The translations under genes and the position numbers were made by a program. Below are positions 24,495 through 36,642 of a stretch of DNA of 64,000 bases, one piece after another. Each line of letters opens with the position of its first letter. The first letter of the stretch is position 1. The notes beneath the pieces were generated by a model. That model was not told the DNA's origin. It was given only the letters and a program-made list of their open reading frames with translations, and ran no database searches. Source of the stretch: Candidatus Nitrosopelagicus brevis (GTDB lineage: Archaea; Thermoproteota; Nitrososphaeria; Nitrososphaerales; Nitrosopumilaceae); assembly GCF_000812185.1 (NCBI RefSeq), contig NZ_CP007026.1, positions 811,107-875,106 on the forward strand. Reading direction: 5' to 3'.

Positions 24495-25160
24495 ATGAGA
24501 CAATATTTACTGTTAATTATAGGAGCAAGTATTATTTTCTCATCTAGCGCTTATGCTCAAGATGTACAAAATATTGAGATAGCGATTTCATCTCCAAGTT
24601 ACAATTATGGAGACAAATTAGATTATACTATAATTATCTCAGAGGTTACAGGAGAAGATGCGGTTATTTTTATTACAAATACTGTTGGAAATAAAAGTCA
24701 ATTATTATCAATACCAATATCACAAGAAGAATCTAGAATAATTGCACCATTTTCATTTGATAGCATAATATGGAATGAAGGTACCTACGAACTGGAATTA
24801 CAATATTCAGGGGCTACAGCTACAACATCATTTACAATTGTAAATGATGGAACAATTGGTATACCATATTGGATAAAAGATGTATCAAAGATATGGGTTA
24901 GCGGTCAAACAGATGATGATGAATTTGCAAAATCAATTCAATTTTTAATTGATGAAAATATTATTTTTAATGCTAAACCAGGAAAAGAATTACAGATACC
25001 CGATTGGTTTAAGATGACAACTGGATGGTGGGTAAATAATCAAATACCAGACACAATTTATGGAGATGCATTACAATTTTTAATTAATGAAAGAGTGATT
25101 GAGATACCAATTAATCAAAAATCATTTGATCAAGAATCATCATCAGATAAAACTTTGTGA
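24495..25160 (+). CDS. secreted protein with Ig-like domain and tryptophan repeat motifs
   Basis: A 221-aa exported protein with a signal peptide (residues 1-21, cleaved near AYA-QD). Residues 25-115 form a beta-sandwich of the kind common in thaumarchaeal surface proteins. Two helical repeats follow, IPYWIKDVSKIWVSGQ with DEFAKSIQFLIDENII, and IPDWFKMTTGWWVNNQ with YGDALQFLINERVIEI. This W-rich repeat recurs in many Nitrosopumilus exported proteins, to my knowledge without a defined function. The last 31 bases overlap the convergent gene. Confidence 0.7.
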   Translation: MRQYLLLIIGASIIFSSSAYAQDVQNIEIAISSPSYNYGDKLDYTIIISEVTGEDAVIFITNTVGNKSQLLSIPISQEESRIIAPFSFDSIIWNEGTYELELQYSGATATTSFTIVNDGTIGIPYWIKDVSKIWVSGQTDDDEFAKSIQFLIDENIIFNAKPGKELQIPDWFKMTTGWWVNNQIPDTIYGDALQFLINERVIEIPINQKSFDQESSSDKTL

Positions 25161-25927
25161 CTTTTCTTACCAATACCCCATAAGATCATCATAATCACAA
25201 TTCCAAGTGACATTCCAATTACGATAGAGTAGATTAGAGGTCCAGTTCTAAAATCAGATGCATTTTTTTCCATAGGAGATAAAACACATTCTCCGTTTTC
25301 ATAGACAGTACCATCACCACAAGTATTCATCATATTTTCAATTTTTTCTTCTTCAGCATTTTTTACGTCAATTTCTGCTTGTGCTTTTGCTGCGGCTTCA
25401 GCTTCTGCTTTTGTGTCAGATTCTGCTTGTGCTTTTGCTGCGGCTTCAGCTTCTGCTTGTGCGTCAGCTTCTGCTTGTGCTTTTGCTGCAGCATCAACAT
25501 CTTGTTGTTTTTGTTCTATCAGAAATGAATTGTTTGCAAGAATTGTTCCAATAATTTCTATTTCTTCAGTTCCTGCAGAAAGTGAGAATGACAAAGTTCT
25601 ATATTCATCAGTTTTTACTTCTTCAAACTCAATTTCGTCACCGTCAGATAAGATAAAGAAATCATCGTCAGAGTATCCAAGTTTTGCATCAAAAAAGTCT
25701 CTTTGAAAAGTGATAGATACATCACCATCAGAGCCAGATACTTCTGTTTCAAAAATTAGAGATATGAAATCAAGATCAGCAGTGACAGATTTCAAAACTA
25801 CATTATTTGCGTTATAATCAATATCATAATTGGCATTATCAATTTCAGTTGAAACCGTATCAGCAAATGCTGGTGGAATGACTAATGAGAAAAATAGTAC
25901 AGTAATGTATGCAATCTTTGGTTTCAA
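25130..25927 (-). CDS. exported protein with beta domain, Ala/Glu coiled coil and C-terminal anchor
   Basis: A 265-aa protein: signal peptide (KIAYITVLFFSLVIPPAFA), one beta-rich domain (about 25-130) ending in EEIEIIGTI, then an alanine/glutamate/glutamine repeat coil (AKAQAEADAQAEAEAAAKAQ and onward, about 145-200), a two-cysteine motif (CGDGTVYENGEC), and a transmembrane helix near the C-terminus (IYSIVIGMSLGIVIMMIL) followed by a short cytosolic tail. The coil may act as a stalk holding the domain away from the membrane. The beta domain resembles those in the genes at 23174 and 37463. Function unknown. Confidence 0.7.
   Translation of the reverse strand: MKPKIAYITVLFFSLVIPPAFADTVSTEIDNANYDIDYNANNVVLKSVTADLDFISLIFETEVSGSDGDVSITFQRDFFDAKLGYSDDDFFILSDGDEIEFEEVKTDEYRTLSFSLSAGTEEIEIIGTILANNSFLIEQKQQDVDAAAKAQAEADAQAEAEAAAKAQAESDTKAEAEAAAKAQAEIDVKNAEEEKIENMMNTCGDGTVYENGECVLSPMEKNASDFRTGPLIYSIVIGMSLGIVIMMILWGIGKKSHKVLSDDDS
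25372..25493 (-). repeat. degenerate Ala/Glu-coding tandem repeat
   Basis: Blocks of about 30-48 bases built from GCTTCTGCTTGTGCT and TTTGCTGCGGCTTCA recur several times within the coding region of the stalk protein, encoding the AKAQAEAEA coil. Copies share long identical stretches, so length variation between strains is likely. Confidence 0.7.
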
Positions 25928-30059: not shown

Positions 30060-31328
30060 ATGGCAAAAATTTGGGTAGAGGCTTATGGCTGCTCTGCTAG
30101 TTATTCAGACTCTGAAATGATTTCAGGTTTGATTGTTAATGGAGGTCATACCTTAGCAGAAAATTCAGAAGATTCAGATCTTAACGTCATAGTTACTTGT
30201 TCAGTAAAAGATGCCACAGCAGATAAGATGATTCGTAAAATCATGGATTCCAGTTCAAAACCACTAGTTGTTGCAGGATGTTTGCCAAAAGCAGAAAAAA
30301 CCAAAGTGGAAAAATTTGCAGAAAATGCAAGTCTAATGGGTCCAAATTCAATTGGTAAGACACTACAAGTTATTCAATCTACACTTGATGGGAAAAAAAC
30401 CATCGCCTTAGAGGATTCGGATTTATCAAAAGTAGGATTACCAAAGATTCGTCTTAATCCAGCAGTTGGAATTGTTGAAATAGCAAGCGGATGTATGAGT
30501 GAATGTACATTTTGCCAGACAAAAATATCAAAAGGAGATTTGCAAAGTTACAGAGTAGGAGACATTGTAAGACAGGTTAAAACCGAATTAGCAGATGGAT
30601 GTTGTGAAGTATGGCTAACATCAACAGACAATGGATGTTATGGTTTTGATATTAATTCAGATTTACCAGAATTAGTAAATACTGTATCACAAATTCCAGA
30701 AAAATTCTTCATGAGAGTAGGAATGATGAATCCAATGTATATGCCAAGAATACGTGAAGGATTGCTAAAATCATTTGAAAGTAGCAAAGTTTTCAAATTT
30801 TTACATGTGCCAGTTCAAAGTGGAAGTGACAAAGTTCTAAATGACATGAAAAGAGGACATACAGCAAAAACTTTCAGAGATGTTGCACAACAATTCAGAG
30901 AGAAGTTTGGTAAATTTACTATTTCAACAGATATCATAGTTGGATTCCCAACTGAAACAGAAGAAGACTTTCAGATGACAATGCAGTTGTTAGAAGAAAC
31001 AAGACCAGATATCGGCAACTTATCAAGATATAGTCCAAGACCAGGAACAGACGCTGCAGAAATGCCACAAATCGACATGGTAGAAATGAAGAGAAGAAGC
31101 AAGTTGGCTTATGAATTAATCTGTAAAATTTCAAAAGAGAATAATGAAAAATGGATTGGTTGGAAGGGTGAAGCAGTTTTTGATGAGGAATTTGAGAATC
31201 AGAAAAGAGGTAGAAATTTTGCATACAAACCAATTTTCGTCAATGAAGAACCAAAAATCGGGGATGTCAGAACAGTAGAAATTACTGACGCCACCGTTCA
31301 TAGCCTAATTGGGAAGATTATCAGGTAA
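30060..31328 (+). CDS. MtaB/CDKAL1-type tRNA methylthiotransferase
   Basis: Radical SAM enzyme that adds a methylthio group to t6A37 in tRNAs decoding ANN codons. The N-terminal UPF0004 domain has its auxiliary cluster Cys at 11, 47 and 74; the radical SAM motif is Cys145, Cys149 and Cys152 (CMSECTFC). STDNGCYGFD, HVPVQSGSDKVL and DIIVGFPTETEEDF are family motifs, and a TRAM RNA-binding domain closes the 422 aa. The sequence fits the archaeal/eukaryotic e-MtaB branch rather than MiaB. It starts one base after the fumarase stop, implying co-transcription. Confidence 0.9.
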   Translation: MAKIWVEAYGCSASYSDSEMISGLIVNGGHTLAENSEDSDLNVIVTCSVKDATADKMIRKIMDSSSKPLVVAGCLPKAEKTKVEKFAENASLMGPNSIGKTLQVIQSTLDGKKTIALEDSDLSKVGLPKIRLNPAVGIVEIASGCMSECTFCQTKISKGDLQSYRVGDIVRQVKTELADGCCEVWLTSTDNGCYGFDINSDLPELVNTVSQIPEKFFMRVGMMNPMYMPRIREGLLKSFESSKVFKFLHVPVQSGSDKVLNDMKRGHTAKTFRDVAQQFREKFGKFTISTDIIVGFPTETEEDFQMTMQLLEETRPDIGNLSRYSPRPGTDAAEMPQIDMVEMKRRSKLAYELICKISKENNEKWIGWKGEAVFDEEFENQKRGRNFAYKPIFVNEEPKIGDVRTVEITDATVHSLIGKIIR

Positions 31329-31405: not shown

Positions 31406-32350
31406 ATGACTTTCGAGATTAAAGAGCCAGTACTAGTAGTAGGGCTAGGCGGAGCAGGCATCAAATTAGCCTCAGAAATGAGAGACGTTTTAGATGCAGA
31501 TTTACTAAAAATTAGTCAAGATAAGAAAGACGTTTCAGAACACAATTCAATTCACATTTCTACAAAATCCATCATAAACCCATCAGTTCAATTGATTCGA
31601 GGTTGCGCTATGGAACAAAGTGAAAAAATTGAAGAACATATGAGCACATATGAAACAGTCATCATCATGGCAAATCTTGCAGGAAAATCAGGTGCTGCAT
31701 TAGCCCCAGTAGTATCATCAATCTGTAAAGAACAAAACAAAAATGTTCTATCATTTGCAATAATGCCTTTCAAATTTGAGAAAAATAGAATTTTCCAATC
31801 TGGAATATCATTGAAAAGATTGAGAATGAATTCAGATTCAACAATAATCATTGATAATGATGCAATATTGGATAGTAACCCAGACTTTACTGCAGAAAAA
31901 TGCTATGATGTGACAAATAATGCAATCAAATGTCTTGCAACATCAATCAAATCATCATCATTAACAGACGACACAAATATCATGTCAACATCACGCAGTA
32001 CAGAAAATATTGAAGAATCAGTAAAAGATTCAATCAAAATGTTATACGAGGATGCACCACCAAATAGCATCAAACGTTCTATGTTGTACGTTTATGGAGC
32101 AGATAAAATTCCAGTTGGAGTAATTAATTCAATTTCAAATATACTTGGAGGTATTTTTGATGAAGAAAATTCTCAAGTGGATATGTCAACATCTGGAAAT
32201 ACAAACGTCGTTTTGTTAAGTGCAATTGCAGGAGAAACACGCTTTGACAAATATGATCCATTAGGAGTTATTTCAAAAGATAAAACATTAGACTGGGATG
32301 AACCAGAAACTAGTTTTAACTGTGAATTAGATTTACCACAAATAGAGTAA
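31406..32350 (+). CDS. divergent FtsZ/tubulin-like protein
   Basis: A 314-aa protein with the outline of an FtsZ GTPase domain: VLVVGLGGAGIKLAS at 10-23 (T1), MANLAGKSGAALAPVVSSI near 88-106 where T4 should be, AIMPFKFEKNR (T5) and TIIIDNDAIL (T6). The T4 GGGTGTG signature is replaced by LAGKSGAA, and no NxDxxD T7 loop is found, so GTP hydrolysis is not expected. Thaumarchaeota divide with Cdv proteins, and such FtsZ relatives have no clear division role. The acidic C-terminus ends in short LDLPQIE. Function unknown; membrane or scaffold roles are open. Confidence 0.75.
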   Translation: MTFEIKEPVLVVGLGGAGIKLASEMRDVLDADLLKISQDKKDVSEHNSIHISTKSIINPSVQLIRGCAMEQSEKIEEHMSTYETVIIMANLAGKSGAALAPVVSSICKEQNKNVLSFAIMPFKFEKNRIFQSGISLKRLRMNSDSTIIIDNDAILDSNPDFTAEKCYDVTNNAIKCLATSIKSSSLTDDTNIMSTSRSTENIEESVKDSIKMLYEDAPPNSIKRSMLYVYGADKIPVGVINSISNILGGIFDEENSQVDMSTSGNTNVVLLSAIAGETRFDKYDPLGVISKDKTLDWDEPETSFNCELDLPQIE

Positions 32351-32356
32351 TAATTT

Positions 32357-32944
32357 TTATTCTTTAGATTTTGGCTTTGATTCTTTAGCTTTTGGCTTTG
32401 GTTTTTCTTCTTTTGGTTTTGATTCTTTAGCTTTTGGCTTTTCTTCTTTTGGTTTTGATTCTTTAGCTTTTGGCTTTGGTTTTTCTTCTTTTGGTTTTGA
32501 TTCTTTAGCTTTTGGCTTTGGTTTTTCTTCTTTTGGTGCTACTTCTTTTGGTGCTACTTCTTTTGGTGCTACTTCTTTGAGGGTTTCCTCTGTAACTTCA
32601 ATTGCATCAGGATCATCAGTTTGTGGTTCAACTTTTTGTTTGATCTCAGGAGATTTCTTGGAATCTTTTTCATCAGATTCTACATCGTCTTCATAATTAG
32701 TAACTAAAATGTAACCATCATCAGTTTTTGTCATTTTGACACGAATCTTACGTGGAGGGCTTCTAACACCTTTAGACCAAATCAAATGAGCTACTTCTTC
32801 ATCAATTTTAATTTCCTGAGTTTTCATATGCTTTCGGGCAAATTCACGGATCATGTTAATTGCTCTAACTGCACGATGTTGACTTTGAGAAAGAAGTACT
32901 TTTCCTAGAGGAATTGTATAAACACGTTCAAGTTCTTGAGACAA
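32357..32944 (-). CDS. rpl31e: ribosomal protein L31e with long repeat tail
   Basis: Residues 1-85 are L31e (VYTIPLGKVLLSQSQHRAV, then AINMIREFARKHM, IDEEVAHLIWSKGV, PPRKIRVKM), a protein near the peptide exit. Residues 86-195 are added: an acidic linker, three KEVAP copies and about four copies of a Lys/Glu/Pro unit containing KPKAKESKPKEEK. The tail is low in complexity and presumably disordered. The start is TTG directly after the rpl39e stop codon, with no spacer, so the two genes are coupled; no better start exists. The pair converges on the FtsZ-like gene. Confidence 0.9.
   Translation of the reverse strand: MSQELERVYTIPLGKVLLSQSQHRAVRAINMIREFARKHMKTQEIKIDEEVAHLIWSKGVRSPPRKIRVKMTKTDDGYILVTNYEDDVESDEKDSKKSPEIKQKVEPQTDDPDAIEVTEETLKEVAPKEVAPKEVAPKEEKPKPKAKESKPKEEKPKPKAKESKPKEEKPKAKESKPKEEKPKPKAKESKPKSKE
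32363..32577 (-). repeat. in-frame tandem repeats in the rpl31e tail
   Basis: Two arrays join here. Nearer the C-terminus, 42-base units (one shortened to 36 by loss of a Pro-Lys pair) encode KPKEEKPKPKAKES four times. Next to it, three 15-base units encode KEVAP. Units within each array are nearly or fully identical at DNA level, pointing to recent slippage. Confidence 0.9.
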
Positions 32945-33150: not shown

Positions 33151-35652
33151 CTATAAAACAAAGTATTCTGCTTCAGGATGATGAACAACTATTGCTGCAG
33201 TTGACTGTTCAGGTATAATTTGTCCAGATTCTGTCAGCTCCATTCCAGATTTTTCTCCATGAATTAATTTCCATACAAGATGTTGTTGAGTTGTATCAGG
33301 ACAACTTGGATATCCCCAACTATATCTCAAACCACCTTTATCAGATAATTCAAGTTCGGTTTTAATTTTTTCATTTATCCATTCTGCCATTGCTTCAGCT
33401 GTTTCAACAGCAAGACCATGTAGATAATATGCATCAGTATACTTGTCTTCTTTATCCCATTTTTCAATCAATTCAGCAGCTTTTGTACCAACAGTTACAG
33501 ACTGAAATGCCACTATGTCATTTTCTCCAAAATAATCTGTTAAACACAGATGTTTAGTTTTTGATGAACGAGGAAAATCAAAAACTATGTCTTGACCGTC
33601 TGAGCCATCTACAACTAATTTATCATCACGATTATGACATGAGAAATATCCGTAAACAGCTTGCGGTTCAAAGAGATTATCTTCAATTACACGTTTTTTC
33701 CATTCAGCGAGAAGTTTTTCAGGATCATCAATTGTATCAGTTTTTGAGTTTCCTCTAATTCCCCATGATAGTTTGAAAAGTGATTTTTTATTCAAATGAT
33801 TCCAGATTTCATTTAGATCAAAATCTTCAGGTCTTAATCTGATAACTTCATTAAGTTGTGGCGGAGTTGGTGGAGAAACAGGTTTGATATCGCTATGAGG
33901 AAGATTCTCAGAGTCAACTTGCTGAACTTTAGTTTCCTTCCAGTTTGATAATTTATCTTTCCAATTATTTACAAATTCATCTTTTTCGTCAGAAACTAGT
34001 TTATCCATTGTTTTAAGACCGTCAAACATGGTGCCACAGTAAAACATTCCAGGTTCATAGATTCCATCTTGTTTTGCAATTCGGTTAATGTAATTACTGT
34101 TTATTGCAGCACCGCCACATAGTATTGGAATATTGACATCAGTTTTTCTTGCATGTTCGACAAAAAATTGCATTTGTTTTGATGTTGATACTAATAGTGC
34201 TGAAAGACCTACAGCATCAGGTTTTACCTCATTAATTTTTTCTACAAATTTTTGTAAAGGTACCTGTTTTCCTAAATCATGAACAGTGTATCCATTATTT
34301 TCAAAGATTGTTTTTACCAAGTTTTTACCAATATCGTGAACGTCTCCATACACGGTTCCTAGAACCAAAATACCCTTACTGGTACCCTCTTCTTTTAGTA
34401 GGTATTTTTCTAATTCCTTAACAGCAGCTTTCATGCATTCTGCAGATTTTAGTACGAAGGGAAGAATTAATTCTCCAGCACCAAATTTGTCACCAACAAT
34501 TTTCATCGCAGGTAAAAGATCATCATTTAATGTTTGAATTGCTCCTTGGTGTGTAACTTCTTTTGTGGCGTTTATCGATAAAACACCATCATTATCCACA
34601 AGAATATCCTTTTGAGATAGTTTTTCTACAATTGCAGATACAACATCATTTTCTATTCCATCTTTTAATCTGTTAATAATTCTAAAATTTGAGCGCTGTC
34701 CTGCAGGCCATGTTGGATCAACATCAACTTTCTTGGTTTTTGATGATGAATCCTGAGTTTGATTTTCAAAATGAGTAATTAAGTCGGATAACGCATTTGG
34801 ATGTTTATTGAAGATCAAATCTTCAACTATCTTCTTTTCTTTTTCATCGATTTCAGTATACGGAGTAATTTCACGTGCATTTACAATTGCACTGTCAAGG
34901 CCATTTTGTACAGCATGATACAAAAATACTGAATTTAATACGCGTCTGGCTTGAGGGGCAAGACCGAAGCTGATGTTACTTAAACCAAGAGTGGTAAATG
35001 ATGTTGGAAATCTTTCTTTGACAAGTTTAATTCCTTCCAAAGTATGTTTTCCTGCATCAAGAAATTCTTCTTCACCAGTAGCAAGAGTGAATGTTAGGAC
35101 ATCAAAGATGAATTGTTCTGGACGTAAACCATATTTTTTTCCAGATTTATACAATAGTTCAGCAGTTGCAACTTTTTGTTCAGGAGTTTTTGCCATTCCA
35201 TCAGGACCAATACATAATGCGATTGCAGGAATTCCATATTTTGCCATCAATGGGGCTAATGCTTTGTATCTACTTCCATCACCTTCTAGATTGATAGAAT
35301 TTATGATTGGTTTACCAGGAATTTGTTCAATTGCAGATTCAATAACTTGAGGATCTGTAGAATCAATAACAAGAGGAGCATCAATTTCAAGACTTAGACT
35401 TTTTACAAGTTTTAGAATAAACTCTTTTTCATCTGAACGTTCAGTTGTTGCAACACATACATCAATACAATGGGCTCCATCTTCAACCTGAGTTCTTGCC
35501 AAGTCAACCAACCCATCAAAATCATCATTGAGAACTAATTCTTTTGCTTTTTTAGAACCCTGGGTGTTAAGTCTCTCACCAATTATTAGAGGACCTACCT
35601 CTTGTTTCAAATCAACGGATTTGATTGAAGAACTTACTCTAGCCTTTAACAT
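33151..35652 (-). CDS. metH: cobalamin-dependent methionine synthase, C-terminal part
   Basis: 833-aa protein carrying the last three MetH modules: pterin-binding domain (LIIGERLNTQGSKKAKEL, about 23-40, onward), B12 cap and cobalamin domain with DVHDIGKNLVKTI near 435 (His ligand of cobalt), and the AdoMet reactivation domain with YSWGYPSCPD near 780. It transfers methyl from methyl-tetrahydrofolate or -methanopterin-type donor to the cobalamin and repairs oxidised cofactor. The homocysteine-binding module is a separate gene 39 bases upstream, so the enzyme works as two polypeptides. Thaumarchaea make B12 and depend on it here. Confidence 0.93.
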   Translation of the reverse strand: MLKARVSSSIKSVDLKQEVGPLIIGERLNTQGSKKAKELVLNDDFDGLVDLARTQVEDGAHCIDVCVATTERSDEKEFILKLVKSLSLEIDAPLVIDSTDPQVIESAIEQIPGKPIINSINLEGDGSRYKALAPLMAKYGIPAIALCIGPDGMAKTPEQKVATAELLYKSGKKYGLRPEQFIFDVLTFTLATGEEEFLDAGKHTLEGIKLVKERFPTSFTTLGLSNISFGLAPQARRVLNSVFLYHAVQNGLDSAIVNAREITPYTEIDEKEKKIVEDLIFNKHPNALSDLITHFENQTQDSSSKTKKVDVDPTWPAGQRSNFRIINRLKDGIENDVVSAIVEKLSQKDILVDNDGVLSINATKEVTHQGAIQTLNDDLLPAMKIVGDKFGAGELILPFVLKSAECMKAAVKELEKYLLKEEGTSKGILVLGTVYGDVHDIGKNLVKTIFENNGYTVHDLGKQVPLQKFVEKINEVKPDAVGLSALLVSTSKQMQFFVEHARKTDVNIPILCGGAAINSNYINRIAKQDGIYEPGMFYCGTMFDGLKTMDKLVSDEKDEFVNNWKDKLSNWKETKVQQVDSENLPHSDIKPVSPPTPPQLNEVIRLRPEDFDLNEIWNHLNKKSLFKLSWGIRGNSKTDTIDDPEKLLAEWKKRVIEDNLFEPQAVYGYFSCHNRDDKLVVDGSDGQDIVFDFPRSSKTKHLCLTDYFGENDIVAFQSVTVGTKAAELIEKWDKEDKYTDAYYLHGLAVETAEAMAEWINEKIKTELELSDKGGLRYSWGYPSCPDTTQQHLVWKLIHGEKSGMELTESGQIIPEQSTAAIVVHHPEAEYFVL

Positions 35653-35691
35653 ATAGAATTGTGGATGAAATTTTTGTAAATACTTATCTCA

Positions 35692-36642
35692 TCAATCTTT
35701 CTTTTGCTGGTCAATAATTTTTCTTAATTGTTGAATATGCTCAGGATCTGTACCACAGCAACCACCAATTATGTTAATTTGTGGATATTCCTCTATGAAT
35801 GAATTTAGTGCAGATGCCATTTTTTCAGGTGTCATTTTGTATACTGCTTGACCTCCAACATTTTCAGGCATTCCAGCATTTGGAATTACTAACAATGGCT
35901 TGTGTTTTTGATCATTCAACCATTGTATGCTAGGCTCCATTTCAATTGGACCCGTAGAACAATTCAGACCAAATACATCAATTCCCATTTCAGAAACAGT
36001 GGTATATGCTGATTGAACATTTGTTCCAAGTAACATTTTTCCATATTGATCTAAAGTAACATTTGAAATCAATGTTACTTTTTTTCCAGTTTTCTCCATT
36101 GCAATATGAGATGCTTCAACTGCTAATTTCACTTCTAGTATATCTTGACTAGTTTCAATTAGTAAAGCATCTGCGTTTCCTTTGATTAGTCCCTCGGCTT
36201 GTAACTCAAATGCATCTCTAATTTGAGACAAAGGCATCTGTCCAAGGTCAGCATCATTAGAACTAGGTAAATAACCAGTAGGACCCATAGAGCCAATAAC
36301 AAATCTCTGTCTGTCTGTAAATTCATCACAGACACTTCTTGCAAGTTCTGCATTTTTTTGATTTAGTTCAACAGTTTGTGAACCAAATCCATATTCATCT
36401 AATTTAATTTTGTTTGAACCAAAGGTGTTAGTTTCAATGCAATCTGCACCTGCAGTAAGATATTTTCGATGAATTTCCTTTATCCAGTCAGGTTTTGTCG
36501 TAGATAATCCATCATTAAATCCATCTTTCCCATCTGGAAAATCTTCAGAGTTTGGTTGATACCTTTGAATTTCAGTTCCCATTGCTCCATCAAAAAGAAG
36601 AATTCTGTTTTCTAATGCTTCTGCAAATGTTTCTTTATTCAA
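35692..36642 (-). CDS. metH: homocysteine methyltransferase module of split methionine synthase
   Basis: 316-aa TIM-barrel equal to the N-terminal MetH module, which binds homocysteine through zinc. LLFDGAMGTEIQRY opens the protein; zinc ligands are Cys in GLNCSTGP and the Cys pair in GGCCGTDPEHI near the end. GADCIETNTFGSNKI is also characteristic. It starts with TTG overlapping the MTHFR stop as TTGA, so the two are coupled. Together with the 833-aa partner it forms a complete MetH; a role as independent S-methyltransferase is less likely given the operon. Confidence 0.92.
   Translation of the reverse strand: MNKETFAEALENRILLFDGAMGTEIQRYQPNSEDFPDGKDGFNDGLSTTKPDWIKEIHRKYLTAGADCIETNTFGSNKIKLDEYGFGSQTVELNQKNAELARSVCDEFTDRQRFVIGSMGPTGYLPSSNDADLGQMPLSQIRDAFELQAEGLIKGNADALLIETSQDILEVKLAVEASHIAMEKTGKKVTLISNVTLDQYGKMLLGTNVQSAYTTVSEMGIDVFGLNCSTGPIEMEPSIQWLNDQKHKPLLVIPNAGMPENVGGQAVYKMTPEKMASALNSFIEEYPQINIIGGCCGTDPEHIQQLRKIIDQQKKD

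Follow-up and report, generated by a model that had tools for sequence, protein, structure and literature searches.

A degenerate FtsZ-like protein of Candidatus Nitrosopelagicus brevis with a conserved C-terminal tail, a candidate non-catalytic partner of SepF

Introduction

The closest described counterpart of the gene analysed here is Nmar_1262, the FtsZ of N. maritimus. Ng et al. 2013 reported that its GTP motif is not conserved (AGKAGSA) and that its T7 loop is absent, that filaments were absent in fission yeast, and that the protein with a restored GGGTGTG formed aggregates, not filaments; the protein was proposed to be losing its role and to be a 'living fossil' (PMC3684127). The N. maritimus homologue was reported to be diffuse in the cell, with no mid-cell localisation (PMC5840170, PMC7613921), and its role in cytokinesis was called unclear (PMC7613921). 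It has also been termed an atypical FtsZ (PMC5797428), and divergent FtsZs of the phylum were described as branching outside the canonical archaeal groups (PMC9871819). Thaumarchaeota are reported to have SepF as well (PMC7613921, PMC10936438). In the account given in PMC8178401, archaeal SepF is the membrane anchor of FtsZ, co-occurs with it and binds its C-terminal peptide, which has a GID motif at its centre.

Why thaumarchaea keep a non-working FtsZ while dividing by Cdv is a question left open in print (PMC3684127, PMC7613921), and our literature search, mainly of open-access papers, returned no recognised explanation of the function of the FtsZ-like gene. That such cells rely on Cdv for division, as a sequence-only reading of the present DNA had stated, is borne out by the literature. 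Here, we analysed a stretch of 64,000 nucleotides from Candidatus Nitrosopelagicus brevis (the window) that carries a gene of this kind. Judging from motif and phylum, Nmar_1262 is probably the orthologue of its product. The degeneracy of the GTP loops, the lack of polymerisation and the open function are already published for N. maritimus, and the finding itself is known. The new part is the genome neighbourhood, the conserved tail and the altered SepF, which lead to a testable idea of the role.

Results

Identity and predicted fold of the FtsZ-like protein

The open reading frame is intact (Table 1), and its reverse complement, translated in frame, is stop-rich. The protein matched the Pfam Tubulin family PF00091 at 68.1 bits (E 1.6e-18, cut-off 33), and scored 66 bits against the NCBIfam FtsZ equivalog TIGR00065, below the cut-off of 295.2. 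Its top relative in a sequence search of solved structures was FtsZ 2r6r (E 1e-11). The exact frame and the PF00091 score support the earlier naming of this gene as one for an FtsZ-like protein. It is the only PF00091 match in the host genome, a single contig of 1,232,128 bases that is 99.5% complete, and nine loci encode relatives at 93-96% protein identity. A scan for sigma-70 promoters and terminators, a method ill-suited to archaea, found nothing exceeding shuffles.

The AlphaFold2 model of the protein, built from an input of 12 sequences, reached a pLDDT of 77.1 and a pTM of 0.81. Foldseek gave M. jannaschii FtsZ as the best match to the model (E 3.1e-15, TM 0.64 by query length). VIA-align also found this FtsZ to be the nearest fold (Z 23.4, rmsd 3.9 over 275 residues), and the tubulins and CetZ1 came near the FtsZ score (Z 21-22; CetZ1 Z 22.0). 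An artubulin or a tubulin should be closer to tubulin than to FtsZ; here, FtsZ was best by both sequence and structure. The structure prediction that had been proposed as a check therefore returned a tubulin fold, and the protein is predicted to keep the tubulin/FtsZ fold.

Table 1. Coordinates of the FtsZ-like gene, its motifs and its two neighbours in the window
Feature	Position	Strand	Basis or remark
eMtaB-type tRNA methylthiotransferase	30060..31328	+	TIGR01578 441 bits; directly upstream; marker of the putative ancestral ftsZ locus
FtsZ-like, catalytically degenerate CDS	31406..32350	+	314 aa, ATG start, zero internal stops
T1 loop GLGGAG, residues 13-18	31442..31459	+	kept; motif alignment
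NPS, residues 58-60, replacing the longer canonical T3 loop	31577..31585	+	four alignment columns deleted
T4 loop LAGKSGAA, residues 91-98	31676..31699	+	replaces the canonical loop holding GGGTGxG
Acidic C-terminal tail, residues 278-314: FDKYDPL, LDW, terminal LDLPQIE	32237..32347	+	conservation
Ribosomal protein L31e	32357..32944	-	NF002258 96.7 bits; convergent neighbour, repetitive Lys/Glu/Pro-rich C-terminus

Some further features of the window were observed. The Lys/Glu/Pro-rich 3' part of the L31e gene holds a tandem array at 32369-32537 (period 42 and others), and the contigs of four related loci (L006, L007, L009, L018) break off within the ftsZ-like gene, at its residue 306, shortly ahead of this array. 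Another tandem array, of 24/48-base units encoding Ala/Glu-rich repeats, is located at 25366-25496 within the gene at 25130-25927. Positions 33151-36642 contain what we take to be a cobalamin-dependent methionine synthase split into two adjacent genes, beside an MTHFR-like gene.

GTP-binding and catalytic loops

The loops were compared in a motif table of 117 rows, comprising 75 strongly degenerate relatives (the present protein among them), 26 partly degenerate proteins of deeper lineages, 11 canonical FtsZs encoded in 10 genomes of the same class, and 5 other rows. Fragments (L046, L056, L090, L094, L104) and identical proteins were left out, and close relatives were kept unthinned. The GxGxxG pattern of T1 is present in 75/75 strongly degenerate relatives; L088 has a gap within it. 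GGGTGxG is found in 0/75 of these proteins, and so is NxDxxD (0/75), with gaps in every row at the T7 residues, whereas all 11 canonical FtsZs have both GGGTGTG and NxDxxD. The T4 loop of the strongly degenerate group is mostly AGKxGxA- or AGRxGxA-like, and its commonest forms are AGKAGSA (13), AGKSGAA (12) and AGKAGAA (8). The partly degenerate proteins have a near-canonical T4 (GGATGSG, GGKVGSA etc.) and no T7 motif. D150 and N151 are invariant among the 75 strongly degenerate relatives. The alignment thus indicates that T7 chemistry is lost throughout the degenerate family and that the decay of T4 is graded.

These loop losses agree with the sequence-only reading, in which GLGGAG was kept, GGGTGTG had become LAGKSGAA and NxDxxD was absent. 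We also observed a loss that was missing from that list: the canonical T3 loop TKGRGCGGYP is reduced to INPS in the present protein. In the strongly and the partly degenerate groups alike, the T3 forms seen most often are shortened.

Gene order and trees

We use the label type A (FtsZ-A) for the eMtaB-linked FtsZ locus of the phylum. In the degenerate family, eMtaB immediately precedes the ftsZ-like gene in the same orientation in 32/40 loci, which were hand-picked for enough flank and are partly non-independent. The comparison with other classes used loci with flanking sequence of roughly 1 kb or longer, one type-A locus being close to a contig end. There, eMtaB adjoins 14/17 type-A FtsZs, on the strand opposite to ftsZ in 14/14, and a PHP-type gene is located by 14/17. 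No eMtaB or PHP-type neighbours were found at the canonical FtsZs of the thaumarchaeal class (0/11) or at type-B FtsZs (0/4). The order ftsZ-PHP-metG is identical in L141, a degenerate locus, and in L196, a type-A locus with a full PF00091 score. Descent from an FtsZ locus is therefore indicated by the shared eMtaB-ftsZ-PHP-metG neighbourhood; the tree alone is indecisive.

Two trees were calculated, the first from 82 hand-chosen rows and the second from 51, with no known CetZ sequence among them. The strongly and partly degenerate groups join, apart from other FtsZs (100/98 including the extra row L119, and 100/100), and the canonical FtsZs of the class group with type-B FtsZs of other classes (100/100 in both trees). 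The free trees of 82 and 51 rows, in which long branches are in play, gave no sisterhood of degenerate and type-A proteins, and a tree forcing the two together was not rejected (p-AU 0.275).

A gene of the degenerate family and a canonical FtsZ were found in the same genome in 10/86 genomes searched; the former is strongly degenerate in four of them (G108, G111, G120, G143) and partly degenerate in six. Given this coexistence in 10 genomes, the simplest explanation is that degeneration preceded the loss of the canonical copy in the lineage of the host genome. We also considered whether the canonical FtsZ of the class had itself degenerated recently; this was rejected, since canonical copies coexist with the degenerate gene in 10/86 genomes and group with type B.

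Conserved C-terminal tail

The pLDDT of the AlphaFold2 model falls below 50 at residues 285-295 and 301-314 of the tail. Its conservation was calculated over the rows with a letter among the 75 strongly degenerate relatives: D284, P285 and D296 are invariant, and Y283, W297 and E314 reach 0.99, 0.97 and 0.93. A profile of 38 class members matched FtsZs of at least 10 genomes of other classes, through to its last two positions. A tail-only model, made from class members only, matched the extreme C-terminus of 11/17 type-A FtsZs with modest scores of 4.8-9.9 bits, the threshold being the best of 1020 shuffled proteins at 3.4 bits. This model had no C-terminal match in 19 type-C, 4 type-B and 11 canonical class FtsZs. 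The tail is without a GID motif and matches type-A FtsZ tails, as a candidate partner-binding peptide. Conserved and unstructured in the model, it looks like a docking peptide.

The catalytic motifs of the type-A FtsZs were also inspected. GGGTGxG is present in 14/17 and NxDxxD in 15/17, and both motifs are present in type B (4/4) and type C (19/19). L181 (type A) has GGGTGTA and a normal T7. Two type-A FtsZs of other classes keep the tail: L177 (1942-3069), with SGGTGIG, no T7 and a tail score of 7.1 bits, and L182 (351-1472), with neither the T4 nor the T7 motif and a tail score of 9.0 bits. This suggests that catalytic loss with tail retention also took place outside the class, repeatedly at the type-A locus. 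Synteny and tail point to in-place degeneration of an old FtsZ locus; thus, we concluded that the FtsZ-like gene is probably a type-A FtsZ degenerated in place, as supported by sequence and synteny.

Among other FtsZs, we observed basic-hydrophobic C-termini (e.g. KKKRFFSFLH, KKKGLFGRMFG) in L076-L079 and L120 of the canonical class group and in L185, a type-B FtsZ of another class. These tails might be direct membrane anchors.

Distribution and selective constraint

FtsZ-like homologues were found in 259/300 genomes of the thaumarchaeal class, which comprises ammonia oxidisers and related archaea; this excludes chance. Among class genomes with a completeness of 90% or higher and a contamination of 5% or lower, they were found in 197/213. 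Pairwise NG86 comparison with four close relatives gave a dN/dS of 0.046-0.077 for the FtsZ-like gene. In the same comparison, eMtaB had values of 0.026-0.037, a fumarase/aspartase-family gene 0.042-0.096 and the MetH-like parts 0.048-0.062; L31e, compared with two relatives, had 0.22-0.23, and a multicopper-oxidase-like gene had 0.094-0.277. The FtsZ-like gene is therefore within the range of its metabolic neighbours; with more distant relatives, synonymous sites are near saturation. The dN/dS check proposed earlier indicates strong purifying selection, consistent with the view that the gene is not decaying, and dN/dS together with conservation rules out a decaying pseudogene.

The gene is missing from some genomes. 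G081 (98% complete) matched none of P0001, PF00091, the A1 model and SepF, and its best Snf7-like match (25.5 bits) was under the cut-off of 27.3. G081, G189, G248 and G285, all of one family, were without the FtsZ-like gene and without SepF matches; they had Snf7-like matches, over the cut-off only in G248. The lack of both genes in these four genomes indicates that the pair is dispensable for such cells. Cdv was tried as a discriminator and rejected, as Snf7/CdvB-like matches occurred in 37/37 genomes at E up to 0.01 (21/37 over the cut-off) and did not separate the groups.

SepF as a candidate partner

SepF was found in 268/300 genomes of the thaumarchaeal class. The SepF-like gene of the host is located outside the window (G000:C1:1184270-1184488; ORF L176:1468-1746) and scored 44.1 bits against a cut-off of 27. 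It encodes a protein of 92 aa with 8 residues ahead of the core domain and no N-terminal extension. A search of 33 genomes gave 28 SepFs, with frames read from the first start codon; none was found in L224. The SepF core is preceded by 7-22 residues in 19/19 SepFs of the class versus 27-95 in 9/9 of other classes. Among the 13 class SepFs that could be scored, no helical moment exceeded 0.48 (0.40 in L211, shuffle p 0.025; 0.28 in L215, which has 17 residues before the core). A segment with a moment of at least 0.65 was found in 8/9 SepFs of other classes, with a shuffle value <0.05 in only 5/9. At the sequence level, the host SepF has no N-terminal membrane-targeting helix. SepFs of the class are without the long N-terminal extension and thus probably without a membrane anchor.

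The presence of the two genes was compared at the order level (263 genomes): 11 genomes had SepF without the FtsZ-like gene, 9 had the reverse and 5 had neither, giving a Fisher p of 0.0006 for co-presence, a value that ignores phylogeny and rests on the 5 genomes without both. Among 37 class genomes outside the order, 9 had both genes, 3 the FtsZ-like gene only, 10 SepF only and 15 neither. G008 (one contig, 99% complete) has a SepF at L221 (G008:C1:277212-277430) and no PF00091 match, indicating that SepF can persist without FtsZ. In G111 (97% complete), the tail is kept and the search found no SepF. A strict dependence of FtsZ and SepF on each other is therefore unsupported; the two genes are correlated in their occurrence, not tied.

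Discussion

Our leading reading, held tentatively, is that the protein is a nucleotide-independent adaptor that acts through its tail, plausibly together with an unanchored SepF. The FtsZ-A locus probably lost the T3, T4 and T7 chemistry in place, giving rise to a thaumarchaeal pseudo-FtsZ whose folded body would no longer undergo GTP-driven assembly. The tail would dock on a partner protein, for which the best candidate is the co-retained SepF-like protein without a long N-terminal extension. Since the SepF of the class has no such extension, the two proteins would work together in soluble form, for instance to link division or cell-cycle signals to Cdv, with no Z-ring. The evidence is explained by a retained non-catalytic part of the FtsZ-SepF module no less well than by an entirely new function.

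The alternatives differ in what they make of the lost loops. A divergent nucleotide switch is somewhat unlikely in our judgement; here, T1 and the Lys-containing T4 would bind another ligand (unhydrolysed GTP, a dinucleotide or a cyclic nucleotide) and the tail would signal the bound state. T1 in 75/75 relatives, the conserved T4 forms and the invariant D150 and N151 suggest a constrained pocket, but T3 is shortened and T7 is gone, and the N. maritimus FtsZ with GGGTGTG put back was reported to aggregate (PMC3684127). A relic, in the sense of an FtsZ on its way to being lost after division passed to Cdv, is improbable in our view. The values of dN/dS (0.046-0.077), its retention in 197/213 good genomes and the invariant tail motif argue against such drift, and the 10 genomes that pair the degenerate gene with a normal FtsZ place the change most simply before the loss of the normal copy. 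What speaks for a relic is the loss of the catalytic loops, the reported lack of polymerisation and mid-cell localisation of the N. maritimus homologue (PMC3684127, PMC5840170, PMC7613921), and the genomes without the gene, such as G081.

Two further readings move the protein away from division or from FtsZ. Its position directly downstream of eMtaB on the same strand in 32/40 loci could point to a role in tRNA modification, independent of division and SepF. However, wherever eMtaB was detected at type-A loci of other classes, it is on the opposite strand (14/14), and it is non-adjacent in 8/40 class loci, so that the adjacency looks like inherited gene order and a role tied to eMtaB is quite unlikely. 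It is hardly credible that the protein is an artubulin, a CetZ or another member of the tubulin branch. The VIA-align scores of tubulins and CetZ1 (Z 21-22) are near that of FtsZ, but FtsZ tops both structure rankings and the sequence search, the synteny is that of FtsZ, and some relatives carry distinct PF00091 matches in longer genes (frames of ~460 aa).

The adaptor reading can be extended to the whole module, a version that is possible but that we hold with doubt. In the ancestor of the class, the FtsZ-SepF module may have changed as a whole, so that a GTPase filament anchored at the membrane became a soluble pair of adaptors working without GTP: FtsZ-A would have lost its catalytic loops and SepF its anchor, with the tail and the SepF core kept. 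A second FtsZ would have persisted in lineages still needing a GTPase filament, in some cases with a basic-hydrophobic tail, and the adaptor pair would now serve Cdv-dividing cells outside a Z-ring. A putative ancestral FtsZ locus under strong constraint, its short tail and a SepF changed in the same class bear on whether an old division module gained a new use once cells came to divide by ESCRT-type machinery.

Compared with known systems, the gene is most like Nmar_1262, which has a similarly degenerate GTP motif (AGKAGSA versus AGKSGAA here), AGKAGSA being the commonest form among the 75 relatives, and which also misses T7. It differs in belonging to another genus and in the published view that Nmar_1262 is probably losing its function, whereas we found purifying selection across the class and what is probably an ancestral locus. 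The artubulin of Nitrosoarchaeum, as described in PMC3349469, is likewise a thaumarchaeal member of the tubulin superfamily, but it is encoded by a gene of its own, which is present in those genomes alongside a regular thaumarchaeal FtsZ. The type-A FtsZs with a YQME-like tail (e.g. L174, L168, L178-L182) share the neighbourhood and the tail type with the present gene; unlike it, most type-A FtsZs keep GGGTGxG (14/17) and NxDxxD (15/17), and the SepF N-terminus is longer in 9/9 cases of other classes. The FtsZ-SepF module of Methanobrevibacter smithii, as reported in PMC8178401, likewise pairs an FtsZ-family protein with a conserved C-terminal peptide and a SepF-family gene in the genome. Compared with that module, the GTP loops, the GID motif and the SepF extension are absent here, and the contact between the pseudo-FtsZ tail and SepF is a candidate interaction.
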